The notes beneath the pieces were generated by a model. The model did no database searches. It saw only the letters and a program-made list of their open reading frames with translations, and was not told the origin of the DNA. Source: Cliona cf. orientalis (Eukaryota; Porifera; Demospongiae; Clionaida; Clionaidae). From it: a DNA stretch of 64,000 nt. Every line of letters starts with the position of its first letter. Positions within the stretch are counted from its first letter, which is position 1. The position numbers and the translations under genes are program-made. The stretch lies in contig OZ005689.1 of assembly GCA_963930775.1 (NCBI GenBank), positions 16,460,760 to 16,524,759 on the forward strand. The letters run 5' to 3'. Of the stretch, positions 4,300-41,086 are shown piece by piece.

Positions 4300-4312
4300 A
4301 GGTCAAAGGTCA
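4300..4312 (+). promoter_or_regulatory. Perfect DR1 nuclear-receptor half-site pair
   Basis: AGGTCAAAGGTCA in the right arm of TIR-1, mirroring the motif at 2907-2919. Confidence 0.4.
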
Positions 4313-6643: not shown

Positions 6644-8031
6644 GAATCGCACTATGTACCGAGAAGCCCCACAACCTTTGACCTCGCGTTAACCCCTTCA
6701 GCGCTCAAAATGCGGCAAGCTGTGCATGCAACCAACTTGATGCACCAGAACATCGACTCTGCAGCTGGCTTTGATAAGTAACTTAACAGACCTGGCATGT
6801 CTGCAGCGTGTGATAGAAAAGCAGCTGATCCATAGGCAGCCAACAGAGAGGAAGGTACTTATAATTTTAGACGTTCATGGCTCGAAGTTATCAAGGAGGA
6901 AAGCAAAGTACCTTATGTGAGGGTGTTTAACTATTATATGAACCAACTTATCAGAACTCCAGCCTATCTTGGAGCCACATGTAGCTACCAAGGAATGAAC
7001 ACAAAAGAGCCTATCATGAACGGATCAGAGATTGAACTTCAAGTGACCAGTCCGATGTTGCAATGCCATGCAGCTTCCAACAAGTAGAAGAACGATTGAA
7101 TAGCACCACCTTCCATTCATGATTGGCTTTAGTGTTAATTTAAATTAATAATAATTATTATAGTCATCAATCGTGTAAACTGAGTATATATTATAATAAT
7201 TATCACTACACTTAATGTTTTTGATGATAATTATTGTGTCCATCATGCATATAAATATGAAGCTACAATAATTACAAATTATTATCAATCCACAGAGGTT
7301 GTAAAGGAAGACAGTTGGGTGTACCAGTATAGCAGCATGATGGTGTCAAAGTTGGAGACTTGGGTACACAAGTGAACCACTTTTATGAATTTAATAAAGT
7401 GAGTCTAGGTTAGACGCTTGTTCAGTATCCTCTGAGGTTGTGTGAATGTGACTTGTATATAATTTGCGGGATATGATGCTAAATTACTGCCTGCTTACAC
7501 AACCCTTAGAAATATCTGGTGCAATGAGGTATAGCTACCATGCTTACAAATTGCACCTGGCTCAGCGTGCACTAAAATACTGATAGTGGCTATAATATGA
7601 TAGGCTAGCCTTCCATACTGATCCGAGTTAAATGAAAGTACTATTGTGAGAATATTTTTATACGCATTGATTTCTCCTACACAATAGGTAAATGTTAATT
7701 CAATGTTTAAGCTTAAAATACACACTAAACCTCAGAATAATCTCTTAAGTTCTATAAAATTATTTTAGACTTCTAAATCAGTGTAGCATTTAGTATGAAA
7801 ATCGTATACTACAATTTTGAAAATTATATATACAACTTACAAGCTTACAAGTTACAGATCAGAGGATTGATAAAAGTTATCACGTATCCAACCCCCCACC
7901 TTGATGCCATCAAATCTGTATGCCTGGTACTTCCATAATCTGCCAGTTCTTCCTCCGCATTTCGCGCGCTGAAGGGGTTAACGTGAGGTCAAAGGTCGCG
8001 GGCCGACTCGGTACATAGACTAGTGCGATTC
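6644..8031. mobile_element. Inverted-repeat element TIR-2 (1,388 bp)
   Basis: Arms of about 75 bases face each other. The left begins GAATCGCACTATGTACCGAG and carries TTAACCCCTTCAGCGC. The right carries GCGCTGAAGGGGTTAACGTG and ends GTGCGATTC. A DR1 motif (7986-7997) lies in the right arm, with a near-match at 6674-6685 in the left. The interior is AT-rich and I see no transposase. The second copy is at 16738-18125. Confidence 0.7.
7986..7997 (+). promoter_or_regulatory. DR1 nuclear-receptor half-site pair
   Basis: AGGTCAAAGGTC in the right arm of TIR-2, a third instance of the motif inside a transposon end. In the second copy it lies 0.4 kb upstream of the receptor start codon (18080-18091). 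Confidence 0.4.
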
Positions 8032-8409
8032 ATAGATATTAGAGGGCGACCCTTTTGTCTAGACCCTCTCGTGTAAGAGGGGCTGGCGCGCGAGATTAAC
8101 ACTAGTATGAGAAGAATATTATCTTCATACTTAGACGTACCATAATATTGGGAATGTATCCATGGCTTTCAAATTATGTGGTTGCAGCACAGCAACATCG
8201 TGACGACCCTTTCCTTGTAGTCGGAGTCCGTGTCGGCCTGATTCCGCCTTTTGAGTTTTCCACTTACCCGCGATATATCACAAGTCAAGCTCGTGGGCTA
8301 GGCGGAACACTCGAGTCTTCCTTCCGGCGGTGGCAAACTTTGCGGCTGTCGATATATAGGCTGTTGTGGTTACGATATTGAATAGCGTATGAGACGCACA
8401 CTCAAAACA

Positions 8410-11400
8410 ATGTTCGGCCTAGAAACCTATTACTTCTTGTCATTTTACATAGTCTGTCAATACCCTTCGTACATAGGCGGTACAGCAGCAGGTGGGTGAC
8501 GTTTTACTTTTCTGTCATGGGGGTATTATAGCTACAGCCTTTTTATTATTATTTTTTTACAATGCAGCGATTTTCTGGGCACCATCGAACCTGACTATTT
8601 CCGTCCAGTCTTCTTCTCCAGCAGTGTTTCAATGTGGTGGACAGGGAACTCTCTTACTGTGGTATATCAATGGGGATATAGTGGTATCGTCTACAAGACC
8701 AACTTATGAGGCTAAAGGATTCAGATTTACACATCAAGTCCATAGCAATAATACGATTGTCAATACCCTCACAATTCCAGCCAGAGTGGAAAATAATAAT
8801 ACTCTACTGAGTTGTCATGCAACTGGCACACCAGGACCTGACACTTCTGAAAATGCCAGGCTAACAATAGCAGGTAATTGAGACTATTAATTAACAACAT
8901 GCATGACATGTATATTGTAACACTAGCTACACCTAAATCAATAGAAGCCTCTATAATATGCGAATTGGTACTTATGGAGTCTTTCAGTGGCTGATCTAAG
9001 CCCTGGCCATAGATACGTAGCCATGCAGGCTTCAGGTATCCCTGGTATAATATGGTATAATTGTGTGTTCAGAAATTTACTTGAGCAACAACTGAGGTAA
9101 CCTAGCTAGACTGGGTTAAAATAACTCTTCTATTTTTATGGATATAGCTAACAATAATTAATTTTGGCAAATCCACACAATGTCATAATGATGTTACACT
9201 ATCTTGCAAGTTTTTCATTGTATAGGTCCACCTCTCCCACCTCAGCCAGTATTCCATGTTGTGAATGCCACTCACATTGAAGTACAGTGGGAGAAACCGT
9301 TTGCTCTCCCAGAGTTTGACATCAGATATTACACACTATCAATTTGGAATACAAGCTCAAATAGTCATGTTCAGCCAAATCAACTAGTTTCTGTCTCTAC
9401 AAACACGGAATATCCTATCAGATATCGCATCAGCAATGGAGGAAACATACCAGATAGCTGTGTGTACCTCAATTTCACTCTCAATGCCTCAAGTGATGCT
9501 GGGACAAGTGCAGTTGGGTTTACTACTGGAGGCTTTGCTATTGGTAGGTACTTCACTACTTTATGCATCAATGTTCAGTTTAGATGACAGTCATAATAAT
9601 TATAGAATATTGTTTAGAATAATATTGGCTGGTGACCAGATGGGATATTCTGGTAGTACTATACATACTTACTTAGAAGGCTTCATTCCAAGAAAATGAT
9701 CCTTATTAAAGCTTAGAGTTTACTGTAACTGTAAAACATAAACCCATGATGGTTATGTAGCTATAATATTATTACTATGCTGTGATGTTAGTATCCAACA
9801 CACATTCTGTGCTCATCACAACAGCTCCTTCACCCATTGATAGTCGGACACTGCATTATGAGGTGACATTTTCCATCAATATTACTCCTATGCTACATAT
9901 AAACTTTACTGTAAGTTCACATACTTACTAATAATGATATGAAAATTAATCATAAAGATATGTCAGTGCCTAATTCATTCATAGAAATTAATGCATGAAA
10001 TCTATATATATACTTTTATAGGCTCCCAAAACTTCATTCATAGTAATGTTACTGTTGAGATAAAAATTCTAGAGAATAATTCTAACAAGCTGCATGAATA
10101 ATAAGTGTATGCCCACCAAAGAATAGTCCTACTCCATTAGCAGGCGTTAACCTGTGCATGCCCTTCCTTGTTTGATTCACCATTCACGCATGACTACAGT
10201 GTTTTTCTATAGACAGTGGCATAATTATTATAATTTATTTTATTGTAAAATTTCCAGTTTCCTGATGTTTGTGATTATCACGATGCAATTTATGTTGTAA
10301 CCATACTGGATGAAGATCGAAGAATTTACCAAACAGAGGATGTTCTTTATAATGAAGATGGCCCCCAAAATGTTGAGGTAGATATTAGAAATGGCATGGA
10401 GAAGAACAACAGGTACACTGCAGTCATTAACGTCACCACAGCAGTCAAATCAACTACTACAGAGTTTGTATTTAGTAAGCATTAATTTTGATATGATAAC
10501 AGTTACTTCAATCACTTCAATCATTTCAGATACCAGCCCACTAACAGGAAACCCCACGCCAGGAATAGTCACGGAATCAAGTTTGTTATATAATTTATTA
10601 TTATTATTATTATAGCATAATTATGACTGTTACAGATTATGCTATATTATTATATCATTTCAGGTACTAGCCCACAAGTAGGAAGCCTCAAACCAGGAAT
10701 AGTCACTGAATCAAGTTTGTTATATAATTTATTATTATTATTATTATAGCATAATAATTATGACTGTAACAGATTATGCTATATATTATTATATCATTTC
10801 AGGTACTAGCCCACAAGTAGGAAACGTCAAACCAGGAATAGTCACTGAATCAAGTTAGTTATATATTATTATAGCATATTATTATGACTGTTATAGATTA
10901 TGCTGTAATATTATAGAGTATTATGATGGTGTACTTAGATGCTTGACTGCTTAAATTTCCCAAGCAATGATATTATAGTGGATAAGATAAATTTGATAGC
11001 TTTAAGCTTGTTTGCAATGAAGTGTGCGCAAACACATCCAAGTATGAACTTTCACACAATTCATGTCAACTTTCAATATGAAAAATAGCAACAGCACGTT
11101 TTAAGAACGGCCATTGTTAGCCAACAACAGCCTAAGTCAGTGTTATTATTATTAGTACAAAGCAAAGTAAGTATACGTTACATGTCTTTGTAGTAGTACC
11201 ATCTTTATATTATATGCGGTAATAGTAAGTTGTAAAGAGCCCACAGAGTATAATTATACAGAAGCATCGTTGGTACTGATGATTGTTTGCAGCCGTGGAT
11301 TTGGGCACATTTCAGTTCGTACCTCAGCAAAGTACTGTTACACAAGCACTACTAAATAATTTTGGCTCACTGCGATTCTATAATTATGCTATACTTATCA

Positions 11401-11559
11401 TATTTACATCTACTTAATATTGTAATATCTTGACAGACCACAAGGTCATCATCTCATCGTCAGTGGCTGGAGGATGCTTCATAATCCTGCTTATAGTTAC
11501 TGTATTCCTGCTGACAGGTTTCATTCTAAGAAGAAGGAAGTTAAAAAGAAGAATGAGAG
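8410..11559 (+). CDS. Ig-FN3 receptor gene, copy 1 (3' end lost at the contig edge)
   Basis: Same exons as the full gene at 18504-23629, shifted by 10,094: 8410-8479, 8568-8873, 9226-9543, 9825-9910, 10258-10474, 10530-10580, 10664-10714, 10803-10853 and 11437-11559. The two cytoplasmic-tail exons are missing because the contig stops at 12315. It should not be counted as a second gene unless the duplicated block is confirmed in the genome. Confidence 0.6.
10530..10853 (+). repeat. Tandem array of three 51-bp stalk mini-exons (copy 1)
   Basis: Units 10530-10580, 10664-10714 and 10803-10853 each start and end in phase 1 and encode 17 residues of the type TSPQVGSLKPGIVTES. The introns between them are also alike, with AT-rich TTATTATTATTATAGCATA blocks. 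The second copy is at 20624-20947. Confidence 0.8.
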
Positions 11560-12315
11560 GTATGATTGTAGTAATCTATTCACTGAGCCATGCATGGGTA
11601 TAGCTATTAATACTTCAGCTGCATGCATTTGGGGAAACCTTTATGTCCATGGGACATCAGGAAAGTGAGTATACTGACAAGAATTCTAAAACTGTATAAC
11701 GTATGCATGCACTGTCAGCCAACCACCTGAACCAATAATGATTTGGAACAGTATTATTGTTGTACACAATACAATACAACATTATGAATCCCTCAAACAG
11801 ATCAAAGGTGGATTCTAGAGTTATATAGTCTAAGATTGTTAGAGTTTTTATTGTGAGCATTCACATGCAGGCACTGATTGTAAACACATGAATGATACTG
11901 AAAGTGGTGATAAGTGTCATGAAGTGTTATCAGTGTGCACAATCATTGTGTGATTTGTGCCACAATGAGGAATAAGCAATACCCTAAGCAACAATAATGA
12001 TATTATAGCTAAAGAAAAACCAGTATAATAGAGTGTATTGCAGCAAACCTTTGAGGATTGATATAGAAAGAAAGTATTTTGCAGACAATTTTTCGCGGAA
12101 TGTTAAACTGATTGCACAGATGAGTGTGGGAAAACATTCGTGGATGGCTGTAACATCACAAAATTTGTGGAAATTTTCTCCCCCAAAAATTTCTCACTAT
12201 ACGTTAGTGTTCATTGTGTCTATACGCACCATGCTTGCAAAAAGGAGTTTCTAAAGTTACTGCTATAAAGGGATTGATAATGAAGCACTATTGTGCAAAA
12301 TCGTCGGTGAAATTG

Positions 12316-12515
12316 NNNNNNNNNNNNNNNNNNNNNNNNNNNNNNNNNNNNNNNNNNNNNNNNNNNNNNNNNNNNNNNNNNNNNNNNNNNNNNNNNNNNN
12401 NNNNNNNNNNNNNNNNNNNNNNNNNNNNNNNNNNNNNNNNNNNNNNNNNNNNNNNNNNNNNNNNNNNNNNNNNNNNNNNNNNNNNNNNNNNNNNNNNNNN
12501 NNNNNNNNNNNNNNN
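12316..12515. other. Assembly gap (200 N)
   Basis: Exactly 200 N, a placeholder length. It separates the two identical blocks. Confidence 0.99.
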
Positions 12516-12926
12516 ATAAAAAAAAATTATGAAATGCCTCCTCCCGCCCCAATTTTTTGAGAAAAAGTGGATGAAAATGAAGTAAGGTAAATTGTATAGC
12601 CTTATACACTATAGTAATAATAATTATTATGATTATGACTACTACAGATTATGCTACTGCAGTCATTAACATAACCACAGTTAGTAAGCATCTGATAATT
12701 TTTATGATAACAGTTGTAGCAAGTATTGTATAAGATTACAACAATGTCATGATATTATATAGAATTGGACAATGTGCATTTGTTTAGTTAATATTGACTT
12801 ATACTTGTCTTGTTAATAATAGGATCTAATTCTTATGCAACATGTTATCATTAATTTTGTGCTTAGTATGTTTGGTAACATTAGTTATACGATATTATCC
12901 GGGTATTAACCACTTCAGTGGTGATC

Positions 12927-14466
12927 CTTTTGCTTTTTTTGGGAGTCTGTAAACAGTGGACTGGACTACTGGAATGGATTACTGGACTGGACTATTGGAC
13001 TGACCTTTGACCTTAAATTTAGCATACATGTATAGATATGTCGATTTTATAGTGTGTTCTATAGGTGCCCTCATAAAAGCTAATGACATGTATCAGTTGT
13101 ATAACAATTTATGGGAACTAAATACTTTTTATTTCTGCAACACAATAGAAGTTGAGTATCACTCTGAGCTAAGATTGGCCACTGAAGTATCCATAATCAC
13201 GTACAACCACAGATTATAGGCAGTATTAATTGGGGGGAGGAGGAGGGGAGGGGGCGCCCTCACTTTTCTTCGTTATCATTACCCCGCGTGCGCGCATGTG
13301 CAGCAGGGGTAAAGCAATCAGTTTGACTGTCATCTGTCGTCTGTCAGCATAAAAATCGGTAAATCTCAACATTTAAGCAAATGTAGGGTCCATAAAATGG
13401 TGTAAGACAGCGAAAAAACACCTTCCGTCTCGTTCTTAACCCTAGGCAATACCCAAGGGAGCTACAAATCGTGCAAATATATTGGACACGCTCACCTAGT
13501 ACTTATGAACTGGGGAGTCTACTGCGCATGCTCGAGCTTCTCTACAGCATGCAATGCTGCCAAAGATTAGGATTTTATCCTAATAATATTATTAGGATTT
13601 TTGAACATCTATTTTGCTTCATTAGCATGTGCTAATTGGGGATATTAGGATTTTTTAGCCTTCTACTCCCATAAGGTAGTACTACAATGTTTTCTATAAT
13701 TGGCTATCTCAGGATTTGGGGTAATATGTTCCTTAGGATTTATTGTTAAAAGATTATGGCAGCCCTGAGCATGCTTCTAGCACAAAATTAGTGCCATCTG
13801 TGATCATGGATCTCAGAAGGGAACGAAAAAGCTCGTGAGTAGCAAGAGATTAAAATTCAAAGAATGGAGGCCTCTAAGAAGAGGCATGGTCATGGGTGGT
13901 ATTGCCATGGCACGCGGGGTATGTGCTCTATGAGCTCTAGTATTCTGGATGTTTTTGTTTATTTAATATGCACTCCTGATTTTCCAGAATGTACTTATTA
14001 TCAGATTTTGGGAATGTAAGTATTGAACTAAAGTATTCTGAAACATTGTTCAGATGCAGAGGAACTGATATCAGATTCTGGGCATGTACGTAAATATTTA
14101 ATTAAACACAAGCTTTATGTGCACAAATACACAATGCACATTCTGAAAGCACTGGAATCTGAGCATATACAGGTAATCTTCGATATGCTCATCGATCTAA
14201 AGGGGATTGACTCAGTGACATGATGTATGTAGCTAGCTATATTAAACTCCAATACTCAGGGATTTACTAAAATGTATTCATGTAGGTAGCCATACCAAGT
14301 TGTGCTTAAATTCTCCAGGCTCTCCACAAATAACATCCTTGTCACTTGTGACTATTAATCTGATATGTATGCCCTATTTAGTGGCTAAATTTGAGGTCAA
14401 AGGTCAGTCCAGTAGTCCATCCCAGCAGTCCAGTCCACTGTTTACAGACTCTCCTTTTTTTTCTAT
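12927..14466. mobile_element. TIR-1, second copy
   Basis: Duplicate of 2833-4372, including the nested R1 element (13280-13941) and the DR1 motifs at 13001-13013 and 14394-14406. Confidence 0.7.
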
Positions 14467-14707
14467 AGTTATAGTGCTTTGTACTTTACATCTGTTAGGC
14501 CTCATTATTGTTTATTGTCTCATTATTCTATATACTTAATACTGAGCTATGTATGTTCATTGGGGTTGTATTCAATATCTTTAGTAGCTATAGCTAATAA
14601 TAAGCTCAAGAATCTCTTCTGCGATTGTTCGCAAGCTCCCTCAATTGGCATAGTCGGCATGATCACTTCTATCAATAAGATAATCTGAGAACCGTATACG
14701 AGTCGCA

Positions 14708-16279
14708 AGATGAGCAGACCTGCAGTACTCCCTGGACTCTACACCGGCAAATAGAGCTGGGATGAGTGGGTTCATCAATTTGAAAGTGTCTCGACAGTGA
14801 ATGGGTGGGATGAAACTACTAAGCTCAACTGGCTGTGTGTGCGTGTCACAAGCAGGGCAGGAGTTAACTGTGTTCAGGAGGCTGCCTGACGATACACAGC
14901 TACTACACGAAGGAACTGTGATCAGATCAAGAAAGCGTCGAAGGAGTGATTTGAACCAGATAGCAAGAAAGAGCTGTATTTGGCGGAGCTACAGATGCGA
15001 GCAAAGAAGAGGAAGGAAGATTGGGCTACTATGGGGAGGACCTCAAATTGCTAGCAGAGAAGTCATACCCTGCAGCTGGGCCAGATCTGACAGACGATGC
15101 GAGAGAACAACTTGCATTAAATCAGTACCTCACCATGGGAGTGCAAGGAAACCCTCTACATCTTCATAGCTTGACACAATAGCAGCTATGTGTGCAAGGT
15201 GATGTGTTCCCTGCCAATATGATTGCTGATATCTGACGTTATTCTGGGACGAGATTTCTTGAAAAAGCATGAGTGTACTGTGTATTTGAGTAAGGATAAA
15301 AATGTATTGCATTGCAAGGAGCATGGGGTGGTGGTTGCCCTGAGTGATAGTGTAGACAAGCCAGAAATTTGCAGTGTTAACGTTGTCTTGGAGGCTATAG
15401 CTACTACAGGTGCCACTGCACAGTGAGATCGAAACAACAGGAAGAGTTCCACAAGCTGCATCCAATCGGACTTGGATGGTTGGAAACATCAAACAGAAGG
15501 AAAGTGCATGCATGGTGGCCAGAGCCATTGTCAGATGGTGTACGGGGTTCCACTAAGACTCCTCAGGCCTCAGGGATGAGATGATCACTATTCCCAAGGA
15601 AACCAAGATAGCAAAGATGGAGCAAATCCCAGATGATGCCTGTTGCCTCAACACAGGAAATACTTCAGAAACCTCAAGCGATCACTGCAGCACTCTGTGG
15701 AAAATGGTCGACAAGGTAGACAACAGACTCACCCACTGTGAGAAGGAACAGCTGTACATGATCTTACTAGATTACAGTGATATCTTTGTACAGAGCCCAG
15801 ATAATTTTGGTCAAACAGGAGAGATTCAGCACAGAATTGACTCCGGTCATTCACAATCAGTCCATCAGCAAACCTGGCGGATGCCTACATTTCAGAAGGA
15901 CGAAGCAAGGAAACTAGTCCAAGAGATACTGGATAAGGATTTCATTCATTGCAACCCTCAGAGAGTCCTTTGGCTTCTCCAGCAGTACTCATCAGGAAGA
16001 AGGACGGATTGGTGTTGACTACAGATGAGTCAATGCTGTGACTAGGAAAGGTGCCTACCCACTTTCCTGAGGGGATGAACCCTTGATACACTTGCTGGTT
16101 CTAAGTGGTTCAGCATTGTGAACCTTATCAGTGGTTACTGGCAGGTGGAGGTGAGCCCAGAAGATTGGGAGAAGACCACTTTTACTACTCCTTGTGGCTT
16201 ATTCAAGTTCAAGGTGATGCCTTTGGCAATTGTGCCACCTTTCAACGGCTGATGGACATGGTTAGCTACTCTCGCTCGC
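14708..16279 (+). mobile_element. Ty3/gypsy relic, second copy
   Basis: Duplicate of 4614-6185 with the same breaks, which argues that the two copies have not diverged independently. Confidence 0.7.
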
Positions 16280-16737
16280 CTAGAGTGCCAAGATATTATG
16301 CTGGCATGCCTATTGCACTTTGGCTAGAGACCCTATATATAGCTAAGATGATTGCTATCAGACCCAGGACAGTTCAGTCACTGCCACACTCTGTAGCTAC
16401 AATTAACTTTCTCTGTGGTGATGACTCATTCAGGCATGCATGCATGACTCTTGGTTGGGATTCGTGACCATCATGATATTGAATGAAAAACACTGTAGCT
16501 AGCTAGCTACCACGCACATAGACTCAGATTACCAGAAATTCACTCGGAGAGACTACGCTGGGATTGAAGGAGAACAGTACTGACACTGATGAGATAAAGT
16601 AGTAATCTATAAAGTTCTCGTATCATCCCCGTGCGCTTACACTGTACGGAAGTGCAGGTGGTTAGTTTCTATTAATGCTTACGCACACCGGAACTGCCAA
16701 TTATTGCATTCCAGCCAGATGCGGCATTATTCATATT

Positions 16738-18125
16738 GAATCGCACTATGTACCGAGAAGCCCCACAACCTTTGACCTCGCGTTAACCCCTTCAGCGCTC
16801 AAAATGCGGCAAGCTGTGCATGCAACCAACTTGATGCACCAGAACATCGACTCTGCAGCTGGCTTTGATAAGTAACTTAACAGACCTGGCATGTCTGCAG
16901 CGTGTGATAGAAAAGCAGCTGATCCATAGGCAGCCAACAGAGAGGAAGGTACTTATAATTTTAGACGTTCATGGCTCGAAGTTATCAAGGAGGAAAGCAA
17001 AGTACCTTATGTGAGGGTGTTTAACTATTATATGAACCAACTTATCAGAACTCCAGCCTATCTTGGAGCCACATGTAGCTACCAAGGAATGAACACAAAA
17101 GAGCCTATCATGAACGGATCAGAGATTGAACTTCAAGTGACCAGTCCGATGTTGCAATGCCATGCAGCTTCCAACAAGTAGAAGAACGATTGAATAGCAC
17201 CACCTTCCATTCATGATTGGCTTTAGTGTTAATTTAAATTAATAATAATTATTATAGTCATCAATCGTGTAAACTGAGTATATATTATAATAATTATCAC
17301 TACACTTAATGTTTTTGATGATAATTATTGTGTCCATCATGCATATAAATATGAAGCTACAATAATTACAAATTATTATCAATCCACAGAGGTTGTAAAG
17401 GAAGACAGTTGGGTGTACCAGTATAGCAGCATGATGGTGTCAAAGTTGGAGACTTGGGTACACAAGTGAACCACTTTTATGAATTTAATAAAGTGAGTCT
17501 AGGTTAGACGCTTGTTCAGTATCCTCTGAGGTTGTGTGAATGTGACTTGTATATAATTTGCGGGATATGATGCTAAATTACTGCCTGCTTACACAACCCT
17601 TAGAAATATCTGGTGCAATGAGGTATAGCTACCATGCTTACAAATTGCACCTGGCTCAGCGTGCACTAAAATACTGATAGTGGCTATAATATGATAGGCT
17701 AGCCTTCCATACTGATCCGAGTTAAATGAAAGTACTATTGTGAGAATATTTTTATACGCATTGATTTCTCCTACACAATAGGTAAATGTTAATTCAATGT
17801 TTAAGCTTAAAATACACACTAAACCTCAGAATAATCTCTTAAGTTCTATAAAATTATTTTAGACTTCTAAATCAGTGTAGCATTTAGTATGAAAATCGTA
17901 TACTACAATTTTGAAAATTATATATACAACTTACAAGCTTACAAGTTACAGATCAGAGGATTGATAAAAGTTATCACGTATCCAACCCCCCACCTTGATG
18001 CCATCAAATCTGTATGCCTGGTACTTCCATAATCTGCCAGTTCTTCCTCCGCATTTCGCGCGCTGAAGGGGTTAACGTGAGGTCAAAGGTCGCGGGCCGA
18101 CTCGGTACATAGACTAGTGCGATTC
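16738..18125. mobile_element. TIR-2, second copy
   Basis: Duplicate of 6644-8031. Its right end lies about 380 bases upstream of the receptor start codon at 18504. Confidence 0.7.
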
Positions 18126-18503
18126 ATAGATATTAGAGGGCGACCCTTTTGTCTAGACCCTCTCGTGTAAGAGGGGCTGGCGCGCGAGATTAACACTAGT
18201 ATGAGAAGAATATTATCTTCATACTTAGACGTACCATAATATTGGGAATGTATCCATGGCTTTCAAATTATGTGGTTGCAGCACAGCAACATCGTGACGA
18301 CCCTTTCCTTGTAGTCGGAGTCCGTGTCGGCCTGATTCCGCCTTTTGAGTTTTCCACTTACCCGCGATATATCACAAGTCAAGCTCGTGGGCTAGGCGGA
18401 ACACTCGAGTCTTCCTTCCGGCGGTGGCAAACTTTGCGGCTGTCGATATATAGGCTGTTGTGGTTACGATATTGAATAGCGTATGAGACGCACACTCAAA
18501 ACA

Positions 18504-21500
18504 ATGTTCGGCCTAGAAACCTATTACTTCTTGTCATTTTACATAGTCTGTCAATACCCTTCGTACATAGGCGGTACAGCAGCAGGTGGGTGACGTTTTA
18601 CTTTTCTGTCATGGGGGTATTATAGCTACAGCCTTTTTATTATTATTTTTTTACAATGCAGCGATTTTCTGGGCACCATCGAACCTGACTATTTCCGTCC
18701 AGTCTTCTTCTCCAGCAGTGTTTCAATGTGGTGGACAGGGAACTCTCTTACTGTGGTATATCAATGGGGATATAGTGGTATCGTCTACAAGACCAACTTA
18801 TGAGGCTAAAGGATTCAGATTTACACATCAAGTCCATAGCAATAATACGATTGTCAATACCCTCACAATTCCAGCCAGAGTGGAAAATAATAATACTCTA
18901 CTGAGTTGTCATGCAACTGGCACACCAGGACCTGACACTTCTGAAAATGCCAGGCTAACAATAGCAGGTAATTGAGACTATTAATTAACAACATGCATGA
19001 CATGTATATTGTAACACTAGCTACACCTAAATCAATAGAAGCCTCTATAATATGCGAATTGGTACTTATGGAGTCTTTCAGTGGCTGATCTAAGCCCTGG
19101 CCATAGATACGTAGCCATGCAGGCTTCAGGTATCCCTGGTATAATATGGTATAATTGTGTGTTCAGAAATTTACTTGAGCAACAACTGAGGTAACCTAGC
19201 TAGACTGGGTTAAAATAACTCTTCTATTTTTATGGATATAGCTAACAATAATTAATTTTGGCAAATCCACACAATGTCATAATGATGTTACACTATCTTG
19301 CAAGTTTTTCATTGTATAGGTCCACCTCTCCCACCTCAGCCAGTATTCCATGTTGTGAATGCCACTCACATTGAAGTACAGTGGGAGAAACCGTTTGCTC
19401 TCCCAGAGTTTGACATCAGATATTACACACTATCAATTTGGAATACAAGCTCAAATAGTCATGTTCAGCCAAATCAACTAGTTTCTGTCTCTACAAACAC
19501 GGAATATCCTATCAGATATCGCATCAGCAATGGAGGAAACATACCAGATAGCTGTGTGTACCTCAATTTCACTCTCAATGCCTCAAGTGATGCTGGGACA
19601 AGTGCAGTTGGGTTTACTACTGGAGGCTTTGCTATTGGTAGGTACTTCACTACTTTATGCATCAATGTTCAGTTTAGATGACAGTCATAATAATTATAGA
19701 ATATTGTTTAGAATAATATTGGCTGGTGACCAGATGGGATATTCTGGTAGTACTATACATACTTACTTAGAAGGCTTCATTCCAAGAAAATGATCCTTAT
19801 TAAAGCTTAGAGTTTACTGTAACTGTAAAACATAAACCCATGATGGTTATGTAGCTATAATATTATTACTATGCTGTGATGTTAGTATCCAACACACATT
19901 CTGTGCTCATCACAACAGCTCCTTCACCCATTGATAGTCGGACACTGCATTATGAGGTGACATTTTCCATCAATATTACTCCTATGCTACATATAAACTT
20001 TACTGTAAGTTCACATACTTACTAATAATGATATGAAAATTAATCATAAAGATATGTCAGTGCCTAATTCATTCATAGAAATTAATGCATGAAATCTATA
20101 TATATACTTTTATAGGCTCCCAAAACTTCATTCATAGTAATGTTACTGTTGAGATAAAAATTCTAGAGAATAATTCTAACAAGCTGCATGAATAATAAGT
20201 GTATGCCCACCAAAGAATAGTCCTACTCCATTAGCAGGCGTTAACCTGTGCATGCCCTTCCTTGTTTGATTCACCATTCACGCATGACTACAGTGTTTTT
20301 CTATAGACAGTGGCATAATTATTATAATTTATTTTATTGTAAAATTTCCAGTTTCCTGATGTTTGTGATTATCACGATGCAATTTATGTTGTAACCATAC
20401 TGGATGAAGATCGAAGAATTTACCAAACAGAGGATGTTCTTTATAATGAAGATGGCCCCCAAAATGTTGAGGTAGATATTAGAAATGGCATGGAGAAGAA
20501 CAACAGGTACACTGCAGTCATTAACGTCACCACAGCAGTCAAATCAACTACTACAGAGTTTGTATTTAGTAAGCATTAATTTTGATATGATAACAGTTAC
20601 TTCAATCACTTCAATCATTTCAGATACCAGCCCACTAACAGGAAACCCCACGCCAGGAATAGTCACGGAATCAAGTTTGTTATATAATTTATTATTATTA
20701 TTATTATAGCATAATTATGACTGTTACAGATTATGCTATATTATTATATCATTTCAGGTACTAGCCCACAAGTAGGAAGCCTCAAACCAGGAATAGTCAC
20801 TGAATCAAGTTTGTTATATAATTTATTATTATTATTATTATAGCATAATAATTATGACTGTAACAGATTATGCTATATATTATTATATCATTTCAGGTAC
20901 TAGCCCACAAGTAGGAAACGTCAAACCAGGAATAGTCACTGAATCAAGTTAGTTATATATTATTATAGCATATTATTATGACTGTTATAGATTATGCTGT
21001 AATATTATAGAGTATTATGATGGTGTACTTAGATGCTTGACTGCTTAAATTTCCCAAGCAATGATATTATAGTGGATAAGATAAATTTGATAGCTTTAAG
21101 CTTGTTTGCAATGAAGTGTGCGCAAACACATCCAAGTATGAACTTTCACACAATTCATGTCAACTTTCAATATGAAAAATAGCAACAGCACGTTTTAAGA
21201 ACGGCCATTGTTAGCCAACAACAGCCTAAGTCAGTGTTATTATTATTAGTACAAAGCAAAGTAAGTATACGTTACATGTCTTTGTAGTAGTACCATCTTT
21301 ATATTATATGCGGTAATAGTAAGTTGTAAAGAGCCCACAGAGTATAATTATACAGAAGCATCGTTGGTACTGATGATTGTTTGCAGCCGTGGATTTGGGC
21401 ACATTTCAGTTCGTACCTCAGCAAAGTACTGTTACACAAGCACTACTAAATAATTTTGGCTCACTGCGATTCTATAATTATGCTATACTTATCATATTTA

Positions 21501-23629
21501 CATCTACTTAATATTGTAATATCTTGACAGACCACAAGGTCATCATCTCATCGTCAGTGGCTGGAGGATGCTTCATAATCCTGCTTATAGTTACTGTATT
21601 CCTGCTGACAGGTTTCATTCTAAGAAGAAGGAAGTTAAAAAGAAGAATGAGAGGTATGATTGTAGTAATCTATTCACTGAGCCATGCATGGGTATAGCTA
21701 TTAATACTTCAGCTGCATGCATTTGGGGAAACCTTTATGTCCATGGGACATCAGGAAAGTGAGTATACTGACAAGAATTCTAAAACTGTATAACGTATGC
21801 ATGCACTGTCAGCCAACCACCTGAACCAATAATGATTTGGAACAGTATTATTGTTGTACACAATACAATACAACATTATGAATCCCTCAAACAGATCAAA
21901 GGTGGATTCTAGAGTTATATAGTCTAAGATTGTTAGAGTTTTTATTGTGAGCATTCACATGCAGGCACTGATTGTAAACACATGAATGATACTGAAAGTG
22001 GTGATAAGTGTCATGAAGTGTTATCAGTGTGCACAATCATTGTGTGATTTGTGCCACAATGAGGAATAAGCAATACCCTAAGCAACAATAATGATATTAT
22101 AGCTAAAGAAAAACCAGTATAATAGAGTGTATTGCAGCAAACCTTTGAGGATTGATATAGAAAGAAAGTATTTTGCAGACAATTTTTCGCGGAATGTTAA
22201 ACTGATTGCACAGATGAGTGTGGGAAAACATTCGTGGATGGCTGTAACATCACAAAATTTGTGGAAATTTTCTCCCCCAAAAATTTCTCACTATACGTTA
22301 GTGTTCATTGTGTCTATACGCACCATGCTTGCAAAAAGGAGTTTCTAAAGTTACTGCTATAAAGGGATTGATAATGAAGCACTATTGTGCAAAATCGTCG
22401 GTGAAATTGTGTAGTACTGAATTACCTGAGTAACAGCAGGCGATAATAATAGTAGAGCTTTCACGTTACCATACTTACAGAATGCACACTATATCCCTTA
22501 CTCGTGTGCCGAGGGTTCACTAACAGTATTGATGCCAAAACATCAAACTAACCTAAGTAGTTCAGTTGTGCATGGCTCTAATAAGGATTCCACTGTACAA
22601 CTTCTATAGGGTTACTTTTATGATGACTGAAAGCGTCACTAGCTATATAGACATTAGGTTTCCTTGATAAACTTTTTAGTTTCTTTTTTGTGGATTTGTG
22701 TGATCATACACAGTGCAATCATGCTTACTTTGCGGGTAATATTTGCAGATAACAGCTTATCTATGAAAACCACAAAAATTGAATTTTTCTGCTACATGTA
22801 TACAGCATGTATCTCTTGTGTACTGAAGTTATACTTGAATAATGCTTGAACATTTGTGCAGCATATCAACACGACGTAGATACTGATGAGGCTGTACAGA
22901 GAGCAGCCTTAGCTATGATTCCCAACCCTATTTACTCTGGAAATCCCATCTATGATGAGATAGCTGACCCTAAACTGCTCAAGTTTCTCCAGAATAAAGA
23001 TTCAGAGCCTCAGTCAAGGGATGAAGGCTACATGGAAATTCCCAGTCAGGCCACTAACATGTTTGGTGGTGCTTTACAACCAAACATGGGGAATAAACTT
23101 GTCAGGGACAAGTCCACAACTTTGTCCGTGAGTTCAATGATTTCATGATGGATATAATAATTTACTAACTTAGAAGATGATGTTCAATAAACTTTCAACT
23201 ATAGGACTGCATGTGCTATTTAGATAAACATAACGTACATTATTAATACTGTATATATAATGTGGACTGAGACAAACATCTGTAATTTTTAATATTGTAC
23301 ATGTACCAACCTGCTCACAAACAGCTTCCTGATATTGATATTAAAATAACAAGCACATATGTGTTGTGTTGACCCTCCAGGAAGACACCTACACTTTCAT
23401 GAATCCAGTGGGTACTCTATCGAACCAAATATGGAGCTCTCCAGAGAAAGGATCGGCTATGATGTACAGTGGAGGAGATGAAACCTTTTCTTCAGAATAT
23501 CCACTAGGCAGTGCCACTCAATCGGATGGCAACCAGACTGGCATAGGAAGCAGTATGTCAAGTTCAGCATTCCCAATTGCTCATCATCAGGATGAACTTG
23601 AAGAGAGATATGTAAAGGGAGCTTTTTAA
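18504..23629 (+). CDS. Single-pass Ig-FN3 cell-surface receptor with tyrosine-rich tail
   Basis: Exons 18504-18573, 18662-18967, 19320-19637, 19919-20004, 20352-20568, 20624-20674, 20758-20808, 20897-20947, 21531-21653, 22862-23127 and 23381-23629 join into 595 codons. Order: weak signal segment (1-23), Ig-like domain (24-125; Cys-Trp-Cys pattern), FN3 domain (126-231; PPLPPQPVF start), second FN3-like unit (232-332), three 17-residue stalk units (333-383), transmembrane helix (about 393-414), basic stop-transfer (RRRKLKRR), and a 181-residue tail. The tail has many tyrosines: PIYSGNPIYDEI, GYMEI, DTYTFM, MMYSGG and EYPL. YDEI and YMEI are 26 residues apart, but neither has the -2 hydrophobic residue of a strict ITIM. 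Extracellular junctions are mostly phase 1. The first exon is the least certain: ATG at 18504 and donor at 18574. Ligand and signalling partners are unknown. Confidence 0.75.
20624..20947 (+). repeat. Tandem 51-bp stalk mini-exons (three units)
   Basis: Units 20624-20674, 20758-20808 and 20897-20947 are spaced 134 and 139 bases apart. Each can be skipped or duplicated without changing frame, so they act as a length cassette for the stalk next to the membrane. A fourth relative lies at 892-942. Confidence 0.8.
23128..23191 (+). promoter_or_regulatory. Possible intronic polyadenylation site in the receptor tail
   Basis: If the donor at 23128 is not used, the frame continues for six codons (VSSMIS) to a TGA at 23146-23148. 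AATAAA follows at 23186-23191. This would yield a receptor lacking the last 83 residues, including DTYTFM, MMYSGG and EYPL. RNA evidence would be needed. Confidence 0.35.
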
Positions 23630-31207: not shown

Positions 31208-31385
31208 AACAATGAGTTTAAACATCACATGGCAGTTCTTTTGTGTTTCGTTTGTATTTTGGTGATTTAGACTAGTCAGCAGCAGTAATAATGAAATAAC
31301 AATGATTTTAAACATTATATGACAGTTCTTTGTGTTTCGTTTGTATTTTGAAGATTTAGATTAGTCAGCAGTAGTAGGGTTTGAG
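31208..31385 (-). repeat. Imperfect 90-bp direct duplication over the receptor 3' end
   Basis: 31208-31297 and 31298-31385 align, sharing TTGTGTTTCGTTTGTATTTT and TAGTCAGCAG. The right unit contains the last codons and stop of the multi-Ig receptor. The left unit is its downstream echo. Confidence 0.65.
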
Positions 31386-34300
31386 TATAATACTGAACCT
31401 TCCAATTCACTAGCTATAGCTTCATTAATAGAATCATTGTAGTCGTTTCTACTTCCATCATCAATATCATTATTATCCTCACCCAGAATCTGAGATTGTC
31501 TTTTGCACTTAATTATAAGACTGATGATTATCAGAGTGAGTGCTCCTATCACAATCATAGTTACTGTAGGTGTAGTAATAATGATTGAGACATCTCTGCT
31601 TGAGAATCCATCAAAGAAGTTGGGGGCTGTAATAATAATTTCTCTCCATAATATTATATACATTTCACCATATGCATCTAGTAAATATATTATCATAAAA
31701 GTGGCTACTCAAAGAAAATGGACCACTGAGGAGTTTTTAGGGGATATTATGATAGCACCATGTGTATTGAGTGTATCAAGATTAAGCAATGCAAGTACAA
31801 TATTAATGACCATTCTTATACAACCACTTTTCGGACATTTGGAAGCAATTTACTGTGTCCGCGTTATTAATAAGGTATACTCACTGAAAATGACATGGTA
31901 TACATAGCAGTGTTAAAATTAATTTAATTTACAACAAACCTTTCTCAACTATGATGATATCGGTGAAGGAATTAAATACAGGATCACTCTCTTCAGTTTC
32001 CTTTGCAGCACACTGCACAATCAAATTATTCAGTTCCATAAAGGCAGTTATGGTGACATGAAAGTGCTGAAGACTATCTGTTGGAAAATTAGAATCATAG
32101 AAGTGAAACCCCATGTTTTCTAATACACTCTTGTTCTGGGTGTAGAAGTAATGTGTTCCATCTGGGAGTACAAATTTCCATTCTGCATAGGTATCAGTGT
32201 TCCTGGTACATGAGATTGTCACATGATCTCCTTCTTTTGTGGTTAGATTCTTCGGCTGATCACTGAAAATCTTCACAGCTGGACAGAATGAAGCCAAAAT
32301 TATTAACAAGCTAATCACTGAAATGATATGGTAGCAGTGTTAAATTAAAACAAACCTTTCTCAATTATGATGATATCGGTGAAGGAATTAAATACAGGGT
32401 CACTCTCTTCAGTCTCCTTTGCAGCACACTGCACAGTCAAATTATTCAATTCCATAGTGGCAGTTATGGTGACATGAAAGTGCTGAAGATTATCCGTCGG
32501 AAAATTTGAATCATAGAAGTGAAACCCCATGTTTTCTAATGCACTTTTGTTCTGGGTATAGAAGTAATGTGTTCCATCTGGGAGTACAAATTTCCATTCT
32601 GCATAGGTATCAGTGTTCCTGGTACATGAGATTGTCACATGATCTCCTTCTTTTGTGGTTAGATTCTTCGGCTGATCACTGAAAATCTTCACAGCTGGAC
32701 AGAATGAAGCCAAAATTATTAACAAGCTAATCACTGAAATGATATGGTAGCAGTGTTAAATTAAAACAAACCTTTCTCAATTATGATGATATCGGTGAAG
32801 GAATTAAATACAGGGTCACTCTCTTCAGTCTCCTTTGCAGCACACTGCACAGTCAAATTATTCAATTCCATAGTGGCAGTTATGGTGACATGAAAGTGCT
32901 GAAGATTATCCGTCGGAAAATTTGAATCATAGAAGTGAAACCCCATGTTTTCTAATGCACTTTTGTTCTGGGTATAGAAGTAATGTGTTCCATCTGGGAG
33001 TACAAATTTCCATTCTGCATAGGTATCAGCGCTCCTGGTACATGAGATTGTCACATTATCTCCTTCTCTTGTGGTTAGATTCCTTGGCTGATCACTGAAA
33101 ATCTTCACAGCTGGACAGTAAAACAAGTAAGCGTAAATGATTTCCTGAGCTATAACCAATAATTTAGTCGATAATTTTTGGAATACAAGTTAGTGTTAGT
33201 AATTAGTTTTGTGCATAGTACATCATTCAAAAGTTATTAATTCAAGTCAGAGAATAAGAAGTAGCAAGAGACATATTAGGATCATAAATCAGTGCATCCA
33301 TGATGTGGCTGGCCATGGCTGCTCTAAGATGTTAAATTTATGATATTCGTCACCACCCTATTGGTGAGGTGCTGCATGGGCCCTGGGGAAATGGGACCAG
33401 TTCCCTCTTGAATGTACCAATACTCAAATGATCCCTTAAAATTTACTAGAAGCAAGCAGAAACTGTTTATTCAGCTAGTGTGTGACAGAGTTGTGCTAAC
33501 CATTTTCCACAATGATTATATCGATGAAGGAGTTCAACACAGGATCGCTTTCCTCTCTTTCTCTTGCTGCACATCTGATTTTTGTGCCGTTCAGTTGATC
33601 GCTGACATTTATGACAACAGAGAACTCCTGTAGTCTGTCCATGGTTGATCCTGAATCATAGAAGCTAAACCCCATGCTATTAAGCATGGTCTCATTTTGT
33701 GTGTAGTAATAGTAACTTTCATCTTGCAGTATAAAATTCCACTCAAGATGTGTTCCATTGCTCCTTACACATGTGATCGTCACATTATCTCCATCTTTTG
33801 CTGTCAGATATCTAGACTGCTGACTGGATACTATTACTGTTAAACAAAATCATGCAAAAGGGTAGATTTGTATTGTATCGCTATTCGTTCATAAACAAAA
33901 TCTTCCCAGCCTCCATTAAACATTAGCAGTTAAAGTTTAAGTTATTGTTTTGGCCATGCCATGATGGTATAATCAAGAGTATATAAGAGGAGGGAGAGAG
34001 AGTGTCCAACTCCATATTGCTGTGTGCAAGCACCCTTTGCCAAGTACAGAGGTCAACTTACACAATCTTACACACAAATTTACCACAAACGTCTGGCATA
34101 TAACCACGTGCTTGTATTTGCAGGCATGGTAGTGGTCTATCACACATACTGAGCAATGATAGCAGTTATGGATGGTCATGCACCTGTACTGGTTTGTGGT
34201 AACCTTGACCTCTGTACTTGGCAAAGGGTGTTTGCACACAACAATACAGAGTAGGATACTCTCTTGGTATAATAATATTATTATAATAATATTATGCAAT

Positions 34301-35356
34301 GTAAATTAATACAATTTCACTTACGTTTCTTTTGGGTTGTGACAGCTACTACAGCAGTATGTCTGTAATGCAGTGTAATGTTTTTCTCTTCCCACCGCAC
34401 TCCACATTTCACACTCAAGCCATTAGTCTCGGATGTTACATTCAATAATATGATGCTGAAGCTACTAAGTTCTCCAGAAATCGTATCATTGTATGTATCT
34501 TCAAGATCTGTGTCGTTATGCATCATCATAATGGCTGTTAATGTTGCCCCACTTTTAAGTTGAATTAATTGGCTACTATTAATTAAAAGTGGTGCATCTG
34601 CTATCATTAATCCATCCAGTGTCCATCGTGGATATAGTGAGACGCCTTGCCTGGGTACTGGCATCTCACATGTAATCCTTGCATCCTCTCCTTCCACAAC
34701 ATTGATGCTTGGGCTCCTCTCGATTTGCTTGCTTGAAACAGTTGGTTTATCTGAAATAAGAAATCAATGTCATAAGGGAGGAAAAAGAGATTATTGTGCA
34801 ACTCACCCTGAGCCACAACTGCTATAGTATTATCTACTTTAAATGATTCTCTCGTTGTAAGACCACAGGACACTAAAACTTCTTCATAAGGATCAATATC
34901 AAAAAAATTGATAGAGAAGGTTGCATTGATCGTGACATTATTCAAAAGGTTGCATTGATTTTGTAAGTCAGTTGCAGTTGTAGTTATGCTATATTGCAGA
35001 TTTCGTACCACTTGTTCTGATTTGTCGTTCACTAAGGAATGACTCGAATAGCCATCTGATTTCACACGGGCAATCCAGTTCAGTTCCAAGTTACATCCAG
35101 AGTTATTAAATTTTAAGAGACAACAATTTAAATTGATTATTTGGCATGTCACTGTCTTAGGTTGGCCAAACGGAATCGGTGAGTTGTCACGAGTAACTAA
35201 ATTAAAGTCTATGAGAGTGATACGTATTTTCATAATAATTATTATTATGGATATAGCTAACATACCTGGAATCTGACAAGCACAATCCATAGGGCTACCC
35301 GGTTTGATCATCCAGGAGCTTAAAATGATAAAGAACACTAGATCACAACAGTCCAT
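31361..35356 (-). CDS. Six-Ig-domain single-pass membrane receptor
   Basis: Eight exons on the minus strand: 35356-35266, 35208-34807, 34750-34325, 33836-33501, 33110-32772, 32694-32356, 32278-31940 and 31626-31361. They sum to 845 codons with every intron in phase 1. Residues 1-31 form a signal-like segment. Ig-like domains occupy about 31-164, 165-306, 307-418, 419-531, 532-644 and 645-757; the last four show a clear Cys-Trp-Cys pattern (TISC, EWKF, VQCAA). A transmembrane helix (about 779-796, VTMIVIGALTLIIISLII) is followed by a 49-residue acidic tail with NDYNDSI and VLYSNP. Ig4-Ig6 come from near-identical exons. A foldback element sits in intron 3. The role is likely extracellular recognition or adhesion; the ligand is unknown. 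Confidence 0.8.
31905..33119 (-). repeat. Tandem triplication of a 416-bp unit holding one Ig exon and intron
   Basis: Exons 33110-32772, 32694-32356 and 32278-31940 are each 339 nt and spaced exactly 416 bases apart. The 77-base introns are also nearly identical. The middle and upstream exons differ mainly near the start (RNLTTREGDN versus KNLTTKEGDH). The most 3' exon carries SVLENMG, TDSLQ and AFMELNNLIV. Such similarity over exon and intron points to recent unequal crossing-over. Confidence 0.9.
33997..34258. mobile_element. Foldback (MITE-like) element in receptor intron 3
   Basis: The left arm (about 33997-34057) and right arm (about 34198-34258) are reverse complements with few mismatches, sharing CACCCTTTGCCAAGTACAGA followed by GGTCAA. 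A second short pair, TTACCACAAAC / GTTTGTGGTAA, lies further in. The open frame on the minus strand here is not an exon. Confidence 0.75.
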
Positions 35357-35760: not shown

Positions 35761-36813
35761 TTACCATAGGTCAGCATCATTACTGCTGTCTAAAAGTACA
35801 GCTGTCTGCCATAGATGCTTAGGAAAAGCATCATAATGGTGATTATTGCTATTCATGTTTGTATGTGAGATATGTCTCGCTTGTGCATTGCACTTTTTCT
35901 TCTTATTTCGTAGTTGCCTTCGTAATTTGATATTGTATGCAATGAGCACTGCTATAACTACTGCCAAGAATATGCAGACAGCAGACAAGAGAGCAACAAC
36001 TGGAAAGCTTGCTTCATTTGGCCAGCTGCTTGTGCTTCTCGATCCAATAACAAAAATTGAGGTAGAACTTTGTGTGGTGTTAGTAGTGGAAGAAGTGGTT
36101 GACTCTGTAGGACTTGCTACAGTAGTTGATTCACAAGGAACTGTGCACTGAGTCATATTAACTGGAGGAAAATGATATATACTAATTGGAGGTATGCAGG
36201 CATATTATTATTATTAATGATGTGTACCTGGCCACAAGCGAGCATACTTCCCTACTAGATGATATTCAGCACGAATGGGACCAAACCTCCTTAATCCACA
36301 GACTACCATTAATCCCTCTAGTGATGAAGTGAAGTTGTGTATTGTCAAGCCATACTGAAGTTGTCCTGTTTCATTCAGCAAACACTGTTCAAAGTCAAGA
36401 CTAGAATTAGAGAACTCAATCATTGTGTCGTCAATTTTAAAGCTATGAATGAAATGATTTCTATCGGTATTGATTTTATAGATTTCATCTTCAGAGGGAT
36501 CTATAATCATCCAATCTTGATGAATGTTCTCACTGCAAACATTGAGATTTTCGTTGCTACTTGGACAATATACTGTGCATGAAGTTGTCACACTCTGTCC
36601 GTCCATTACAGGAACAATGTGGTCATTCTTGTAATGTGCATCAATATCTACAAATTTTAAGTTTTAACAAAACTTACAATAAGATAGTATTATCAACTTA
36701 CAAGGCAAATAACGACTTTGAAAACACTCTGACATCGCCGATGCTGACCAGTTGGTAATCACCATTAGGCAGTAGCACAGAATTAGCATCAAAGTCATGT
36801 AAATGGCAGCCAT
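35761..36813 (-). CDS. Single-Ig membrane protein with Ser/Thr-rich stalk
   Basis: Exons 36813-36702, 36647-36228 and 36161-35761 give 310 codons with both introns in phase 1. Residues 1-26 form a strong signal peptide (hydrophobic core LMLILCYCLMVI, end SASA). An Ig-like domain covers about 38-177 (Cys at TTSC, Trp at QDW, Cys at VVCG). A Thr/Ser-rich, probably O-glycosylated stalk (about 188-223) leads to a transmembrane helix (about 231-252), a basic stop-transfer (KLRRQLRNKKKK) and a 58-residue tail with HHYDAF. It lies head to tail with the six-Ig gene, 404 bases upstream of that start codon, and shares its exon logic, so the two are probably related by duplication. An ATTAAA on the minus strand near 35711 could serve polyadenylation. 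Confidence 0.78.
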
Positions 36814-39116: not shown

Positions 39117-40847
39117 CTATTTACTGTCCGTTAATTTAGCTAATAAATTATGGCAAAGTTTATCTTCAGATAAAGCCCTTTCTCGAAAATGCTCTACTTG
39201 CTTCTTCATGGCGGTGGAACTCACTTGCAGTTCATGAGAACCCACAAGCCAGGCTTGATCATAAAATTTTTCATCTACAGTATAAAAAGCGTCACAAATA
39301 TTCAGGCTCTCAGGACCCAGAGTAGCAACTGCAAGCAGCTTGATAACAAGTACATTGAAGAAATGCACAAACGGATTCGCTGGTGACTGACTGGTATCAG
39401 CATCTCTTTTCTCATCTAAAGGTATTAATTGCTTCAAAACATTTGACCCGATTGCATCAGCTATTTGGCTGTATGAGTTTATTATTTCTTTCTTTTTCTG
39501 TTTGATAATGTGCCACAATGTATCTCTATATTTATCCTGGTCAAGAGCTGCACAGCCAAAGGAGATAGTAAAGCAGAGAAGGCTGGCAAGCCACTGAAGT
39601 ACCAGAACATGATGACAGCAGCAGTAGTAAACACCACTGAGTGCGTATAAGTGGCGATCTATTTTTATCATTTCCTGATTGAGGGTACTACACTGACTAA
39701 TTTCTTGTGACAGGTCATGAATGTACTGACACGCCAGCTCAGCAGGTGTCCCAAAAGGTGATTTGCGTAGTTGCATATGCTCCTTCAGCTCATCTCTGAC
39801 TGATTGATTCCAATTCAAGATATTCATGAAAGAGTCAAACGATTTGTAGGAGACAAAGGCTTGTTCTGTTGTTTTACAAAGTTCTTCAATGTGAAAATCA
39901 TCCAAATAGAGTAGAGACGTCCGTGCTGAATAAGACTGGTTAATTTGCAGCGCTTCTAAGAGGGAAGTTCTGATAAGTGAGCCAAAAGAAATCTTGCAGC
40001 TTGAAGCACTGCATCGAAGGCATTTAGCTAAAGATGACAAGGTTGAATAATCAAAAGATTTCCTAAAATGTCCAGCTATAGGACTAAGCAGCTTAATTCT
40101 CACGTCATTCTTACCCTGAACTTCATTCAGTGATTTCATGTAGAAATCATAAGATTGCTGTTTGGAATGCAAAAGCAATCTAATTTTCAGGTTAAGCTGC
40201 TGTTGGGAAGTAGATAACGTGGTCGCAGGGAGTTGAGGGAATTTGAAGCATTCAAGAAGCTTTGCTAAATCTATCCTCCCTATAGCCTGTAGACATGATG
40301 AAAGTCGATCAAGCACATCGACTGAACTCAAACCACCTTCTTTCTCCAATAGCTGAGCTAATTCAAAACCAGTCATTTGGCTGTACCTTGGATACATAAG
40401 AAAGGCTAGTTTCGTCACGTCTTCAGGTTTTAGATGCTGAGAAAGATGTAGCAGGAACATTCTTGAGTCTGTGTTGGGGTCGCAGGACACACTCAATAAC
40501 GAAGTATCAATTAGACTAGATTCTGGAGTAGTGGGGCTGACAAAACAACCAAAGTATCCCTTGTCTTCAACATTCGATCCTCCAAAAAGAATTTGAAATT
40601 GGTCTGGTAACAGCGAGGCAAGATCATGCCGGCCCACCAGTGTTAATTGCTTCCTTAGGTAGTCATAATTGGCTGGTCCAAGGTAATCTCTTTGTTTTAG
40701 TTCTCGAAAGAGATGAATACCACTGATAATCTGATCAATAGCAGAGGAAGGTAAAACATCACTACAGGCAAACACTAAGTTATCAAGATTTTCCTTTGAA
40801 AGTCTCTGGGACAAATTTGTTAGAAGTGAATAATAGTAACTGGCCAT
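39117..40847 (-). CDS. Tandem death-effector-domain protein without caspase domain
   Basis: One uninterrupted frame of 576 codons from ATG 40847. An upstream in-frame ATG at 40892 would add 15 residues; 40847 was chosen because the first DED starts there and ATGGCC is a good initiation context. DED1 covers about 1-80 and DED2 about 125-203. Each ends with the helix-6 RxDL signature of the family (RHDLASLL, RIDLAKLLE). The remaining 370 residues are helical-looking and lack the caspase HG and QACxG signatures, so this is neither caspase-8 nor an obvious FLIP. A hydrophobic stretch near residues 430-460 (VLVLQWLASLLCFTISF) could be membrane-associated. DEDs assemble death and NF-kB signalling complexes by homotypic contact. 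The partner is unknown. Confidence 0.75.
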   Translation of the reverse strand: MASYYYSLLTNLSQRLSKENLDNLVFACSDVLPSSAIDQIISGIHLFRELKQRDYLGPANYDYLRKQLTLVGRHDLASLLPDQFQILFGGSNVEDKGYFGCFVSPTTPESSLIDTSLLSVSCDPNTDSRMFLLHLSQHLKPEDVTKLAFLMYPRYSQMTGFELAQLLEKEGGLSSVDVLDRLSSCLQAIGRIDLAKLLECFKFPQLPATTLSTSQQQLNLKIRLLLHSKQQSYDFYMKSLNEVQGKNDVRIKLLSPIAGHFRKSFDYSTLSSLAKCLRCSASSCKISFGSLIRTSLLEALQINQSYSARTSLLYLDDFHIEELCKTTEQAFVSYKSFDSFMNILNWNQSVRDELKEHMQLRKSPFGTPAELACQYIHDLSQEISQCSTLNQEMIKIDRHLYALSGVYYCCCHHVLVLQWLASLLCFTISFGCAALDQDKYRDTLWHIIKQKKKEIINSYSQIADAIGSNVLKQLIPLDEKRDADTSQSPANPFVHFFNVLVIKLLAVATLGPESLNICDAFYTVDEKFYDQAWLVGSHELQVSSTAMKKQVEHFRERALSEDKLCHNLLAKLTDSK

Positions 40848-41086
40848 AATCTCAATCTTCAGCTTAATTGCAGTACTTATTAACTCTATCATTTGCTATA
40901 ATTATACTATCGTCGACTTCTAGCTCAGGCTCTTTTATAATGAGATATAATGAAAGGGATTTTCTCCTACACTGCATGGGGAAAATAAACATAAAGAGAA
41001 ATCCTTCATAGGGGAGCTCGAGGGTTTTCCAGAAGTATGATATCATAAATGATGCAAACTGCCCCATGAAAGTATTAAATGTGTGG

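Follow-up and report, generated by a model that had tools for sequence, protein, structure and literature searches.

A hybrid Ig-like exon in a predicted sponge receptor gene probably records a single recent unequal crossover

How did three almost identical exons come to stand in tandem within one predicted receptor gene of the sponge Cliona cf. orientalis? The gene lies in a stretch of 64,000 nucleotides, which was analysed at its full length and is called the window here. The window is part of a 37.5-Mb contig (C1) in a genome of 216.8 Mb and 149 contigs. The original prediction described a recent triplication of one Ig-domain exon inside a receptor gene, with replacements in the domain loops and a possible role in immune recognition or allorecognition. 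In our gene model, the gene has 8 exons on the minus strand of the window, from 35356 to 31361. Once joined, the exons give a single frame that stays open through all 8 exons and counts 842 codons with the stop. In the predicted protein, a signal peptide is followed by six putative Ig-like domains, each encoded by its own exon, and then by a transmembrane segment and a short tail. The features of the gene are as follows.

35266..35356, minus strand: exon 1, 91 nt, with the ATG and the signal peptide (hydrophobic leader judged by eye), ending in phase 1
34807..35196, minus strand: exon 2, 390 nt, phase 1-1, divergent putative domain 1
34325..34750, minus strand: exon 3, 426 nt, phase 1-1, Ig-like domain 2
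33501..33836, minus strand: exon D, 336 nt, phase 1-1, an older relative of the array exons
32772..33110, minus strand: exon A, 339 nt, the 5'-most array unit
32695..32771, minus strand: intron A-B, 77 nt, same sequence as intron B-C
32356..32694, minus strand: exon B, 339 nt, a hybrid that matches C at exon sites 26-81 and A at 137-330
32279..32355, minus strand: intron B-C, 77 nt, same sequence as intron A-B
31940..32278, minus strand: exon C, 339 nt, the 3'-most array unit
31361..31626, minus strand: last exon, transmembrane segment (hydrophobic segment judged by eye) and short cytoplasmic tail to the stop

From these features, judged by eye, the product is predicted to be a type I single-pass membrane receptor. 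Each of the seven introns has GT-AG ends, and all junctions in the gene model are in phase 1, as had been stated for the array exons at the outset. Genes for Ig-domain proteins usually encode one domain per phase 1-1 exon, and exons 2, 3, D, A, B and C of the model all have this form. The profile matches of these exons are weak. Exon 3 matched Pfam Ig_2 with E=0.0048 and 17.5 bits (cut-off 27), and exons A and C matched Pfam V-set with 18.8 bits (E=0.002) and 16.9 bits, respectively, below the cut-off of 26. Exon D gave no Pfam match of its own at E <= 1, and our home-made Ig profile missed the array exons. Exon 2 has no Pfam Ig match; its Ig-likeness is a Cys/Trp pattern seen by eye. When a single sequence was used to search the PDB, the Ig-like protein 9ncf_S came first (E=4.5e-6). 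A profile search of the PDB with four exons placed antibody light chains first (E=0.00053), and 9ncf_S was absent among the 60 matches listed. Comparison of the array exons with exon 3 by hhalign gave a probability of 10%, and the predicted structure has low confidence (pLDDT 52). The weak profile scores probably reflect divergence of these putative members rather than a match to another family. The sub-threshold profile matches, together with the low-confidence model, mark the array exons as putative Ig exons.

TRF found a period of 416 with 2.9 copies, 97% matches and 0% indels at 31924-33118. The three array exons are each 339 nt and the two inner introns are each 77 nt and mutually identical, which gives a period of exactly 416 bp. 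Thus, TRF and the exon comparison agree with the lengths, period and near identity first described. The exons are 94-98% identical: among 339 positions, A and B differ at 6, B and C at 14, and A and C at 20. Across the 20 exon sites that distinguish A from C, the states of B in gene order are CCCCCCAAAAAAAAAAAAAA. In other words, B equals C at the first six differing sites and A at the remaining fourteen, with a single switch. Given six C and fourteen A states, a perfect block order of C then A is expected by chance in 1 of 38,760 arrangements. The switch lies after exon site 81 and before site 137; the 55 bp in between (82-136) are the longest run that A and C share without a difference. Exon B and its intron have 0 private changes in 416 bp, which sets the 95% upper bound of divergence since the last event at 0.72%, at most about one-eighth of the A-C exon divergence (20/339 = 5.9%). 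Because the 416 bp of the hybrid carry no private change, the last event happened recently compared with the divergence of A and C. Exact repeats within the array reach 471 bp, far above chance, a length that corresponds to the 416-bp unit plus the common 55 bp. By inspection, C is without one N-glycosylation sequon (NLT changed to NLI) that A and B retain. The analysis supports a triplication in which an Ig-like exon of a predicted type I receptor multiplied recently and kept the frame, but the units are not equivalent, because B is a hybrid of C and A.

We propose that the receptor quite probably gained one of its six Ig-like domains through a single recent unequal crossover within an exon. 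In an older step, tandem duplication of an Ig exon with part of its downstream intron would have produced units A and C, which would then have diverged under purifying selection. In a later step, which can be read from the sequence, A on one chromatid would have paired with C on another, and recombination would have occurred inside the exon, within the 55-bp stretch. The product would be A, a hybrid with the start of C and the end of A, and then C, with the same intron twice. The C start and A end of exon B have the orientation predicted for the three-unit product of an A/C crossover and thus fit this mechanism, which also accounts for the identity of the two 77-nt introns, both being derived from a single ancestral intron. 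With a length of 339 nt and phase 1-1 borders, every extra exon extends the ectodomain by one domain and keeps the frame intact. The effect would probably be a longer or more multivalent adhesive ectodomain.

The array of three units had been described correctly, but it is not the full set of copies: an older fourth copy, exon D, lies upstream and shares 53% protein identity with exon A. The genome search with exon A found D at 54% (E=2.5e-35). The synonymous sites of D are near saturation (dS 2.6 versus A and 1.8 versus C). With respect to the first duplication that gave A and C, the intron after C aligned to the inner intron with a score of 62, where the maximum of 500 shuffles was 42. The intron before A scored 30, no better than shuffles (maximum 40). 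These scores suggest that, in the first duplication, sequence of the downstream intron became fused to the acceptor of the exon. The original duplicated segment would have been the exon with about 56 nt of the intron that follows it, with the new junction close to the 3' splice site.

A hybrid unit, one switch within shared sequence and the predicted order, as expected for an unequal crossover, were all found; a loop in the assembly would give the same pattern. B would be an invented unit if the true allele consists of A and C and the 55-bp stretch was traversed twice in the assembly graph. Exon B, with its 416 bp free of private bases, is exactly the output of such a twice-traversed loop, and there is an apparent scaffold error nearby:

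12316..12515, no strand: gap of 200 N, adjoined on both sides by 9,894-bp copies, outside the gene

The two copies (2422-12315 and 12516-22409) are 9,894 bp long and 100% identical. They most likely arose where two overlapping contigs were left unmerged, and therefore the Ig/FN3-like gene there is probably not truly duplicated. The Ig/FN3-like open frames at 8477-8881 and 9192-9587 and at 18571-18975 and 19286-19681 are probably a false duplication of this kind. However, an error that resembles an unmerged overlap of contig ends does not resemble a graph loop, and it suggests contigs built from what were probably long reads, which would span 1.2 kb. Moreover, the array is within the gap-free segment 12516-64000, and the gap above is the sole N run in the window. 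We consider it unlikely that B is an artefact of assembly.

Several other features were observed in the window. An open frame of 592 aa at 39117-40895 (minus strand) contains two stretches of the death effector domain (PF01335, E=4.3e-27). At 35761-36663 (minus strand), there is a neighbouring putative membrane-protein gene with, by eye, an extracellular-looking exon, a Ser/Thr-rich stalk and a hydrophobic segment. This gene gave no Pfam Ig match, and its domain has no real similarity to exon 2 (BLASTP E=0.065). An open frame of 101 aa at 22843-23145 (plus strand) contains the tyrosine motifs YSGNPIYDEI and YMEI and has no Pfam match; it is perhaps a cytoplasmic signalling tail. Elsewhere in the genome, two clusters of papain-family proteases with long open frames (C16:190354-197654 and C16:4848102-4863163) contain 11 of the 12 best among 49 genome matches. 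Three of the 49 were inspected for a silicatein signature (L042, L043) and have ordinary cathepsin active sites.

Ig domains with similar repeats are present at other places in this genome. For Ig_3, there were 1805 first-look candidates, of which the best 150 were scored, and all of these were above the cut-off. Eighteen other Ig-rich loci (L021-L038, with L036 extended by L041) were picked for clustered strong Ig_3 matches and not at random. A repeat was counted when both copies covered at least 70% of an Ig domain of the home-made profile, the alignment was at least 150 bp and the copies were less than 5 kb apart. By this rule, Ig-bearing direct repeats of at least 150 bp occur at 4 of the 18 loci (L022, L035, L036 with L041, and L037), a count that gives no random background rate. 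The best repeat pair is at least 95% identical at 2 of the 18. The array in the window is itself uncounted by this rule because the home-made profile misses it. At L029, a pair with 94.3% identity over 175 bp covers about 69% of the Ig domain in each copy and narrowly fails the rule; direct repeats at L028, L030, L032, L033 and L034 also fall outside it. The array on C15 (L036:7223-9901 and L041:43-2222, 3.577-3.582 Mb) consists of paired Ig-like domains with offsets of 578-648 bp. It also holds a pair offset by 1,225 bp, in which mismatches per 100 bp number 0-3 in the core and 7-17 toward the edges, a pattern that resembles the result of a recent unequal exchange. Given the Ig repeats at these other loci, the 416-bp array appears to exemplify a recurrent process in this genome.

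Exchange between copies may also take the form of gene conversion, which likewise yields hybrids. For example, at locus L022 on C10, two Ig exons share 96.7% identity over 330 bp, and the six longest alignments listed for this locus (over 700 bp) are 76-89% alike. In the sponge receptor gene, an older three-unit array could have been homogenised at B, with C as the donor for one side and A for the opposite side. However, at least two events would be needed, in addition to making both introns exactly alike. This is a less simple course than one crossover, and we judge it quite unlikely.

Under the single-crossover mechanism, all three array exons are predicted to be spliced into one product. 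Dscam arrays consist of many divergent, mutually exclusive exons, and exons A, B and C might likewise be alternatively spliced, perhaps in a mutually exclusive manner, and diversify the receptor. Because each exon is phase 1-1 and a multiple of three, any subset would keep the frame. Furthermore, the donors in the array are GTTTGT, which is further from the consensus GTAAGT than other donors of the gene. However, a choice among copies that are 94-98% identical would bring hardly any diversity. Steric exclusion is not expected either, given that the gene also has a 56-nt intron, shorter than the 77-nt ones, and identical introns leave no unit-specific element. Thus, alternative splicing of this type is very unlikely.

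The original prediction proposed a comparison of synonymous and non-synonymous changes among the units. Between A and C, there are 9 synonymous and 11 replacement changes (dS 0.149, dN 0.042), and the dN/dS ratio is 0.28 (Fisher p = 0.007); these values come from one unit pair in one genome, with low power at single sites. The A-C comparison shows purifying selection and does not support diversifying selection, and positive selection among the units is rejected on this ratio. Between A and B, dN/dS is 1.24 on six changes (one synonymous), which is uninformative either way. The replacements had been placed in domain loops. In the pLDDT 52 model, 4 of 10 replaced codons are in predicted strands, and 40% of the residues are strand; thus, there is no loop bias, and loop-biased replacements are rejected at the low confidence of that model.

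We searched the genome with exons A, 3 and 2, and no close paralogue of the gene was found among the best candidates, which were scored. The search with exon A gave 9 matches at E <= 10, namely the gene's own four exons at E <= 2.5e-35 and five other places at E 0.018 to 2.35. Exon 3 returned itself and three places at E >= 0.54, and exon 2 returned itself alone. Because these searches returned the gene's own exons and weak places with E >= 0.018, a close multigene family was rejected for the best candidates. Four of the five weak distant matches of exon A are on contig C1 at 13.37-14.96 Mb, within 1.6 Mb, and are perhaps a remote Ig-like cluster.

An immune or allorecognition receptor with domain number under diversifying selection would agree with the Ig-like ectodomain, the predicted transmembrane segment, the death effector domain frame in the same window and the recent change of unit number, but there is no positive evidence for such a link, which the A-C ratio, the poorly modelled absence of loop bias, the lack of a close paralogue in the searches and the Ig-bearing repeats at other Ig-rich loci make highly improbable.

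With a last event this recent in comparison with the A-C split, polymorphism in copy number can reasonably be expected, and it is plausible that the unit number varies between individuals. There is only a very small chance that ectodomain length is set by a fast-mutating count of 416-bp units, so that individuals differ and length or valency serves as a tag of identity or adhesion. If this were true, intra-exon crossovers would also create new hybrid domains. The mechanism of unequal crossover is already well known, and the array by itself is no evidence of a new recognition system. Instead, the locus is an unusually clean record of a single domain-gain event, in which both parents and the hybrid are adjacent and unaltered since. 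Should the number of units still be variable, a natural population would offer a way to measure how fast unequal exchange within the exon proceeds and how it alters receptor length.

No description of this locus was found in the open-access literature that was searched, and we compared it with known systems. Hydractinia Alr1 and Alr2 belong to a 41-gene family in an allorecognition complex, and Dscam-hv exon arrays are also named in the same source (both from part of PMC11999971). The sponge array exons may resemble Alr1 and Alr2 in being V-set-like, by weak matches. In contrast, the sponge gene has no close paralogues in our searches and is known here from one assembly. The array shares with Dscam the tandem arrangement of Ig-coding exons in a surface receptor. 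However, in place of divergent alternative exons, it has three near-identical ones (94-98%) with identical introns and no sign of exclusive choice. In Podospora, the WD-repeat allorecognition genes het-d and het-e belong to a family of ten genes among which about 70 repeats are exchanged, and four codons of the interaction surface are under positive selection (from part of PMC1805685). The sponge locus is a single gene with three units; its A-C dN/dS of 0.28 represents purifying selection, not the diversifying selection among repeats of the het-d/het-e type. Another known arrangement is that of fish IgD, in which C-delta domain exons occur in tandem blocks and the domain number varies by species (from part of PMC5192425). 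In both cases, whole Ig-domain exons are tandemly duplicated and lengthen an Ig protein. In fish IgD, the repeated blocks contain two to three exons of a vertebrate antibody locus (same part of PMC5192425), whereas in the sponge gene one exon of an unrelated predicted receptor is repeated, and the crossover hybrid is explicit.
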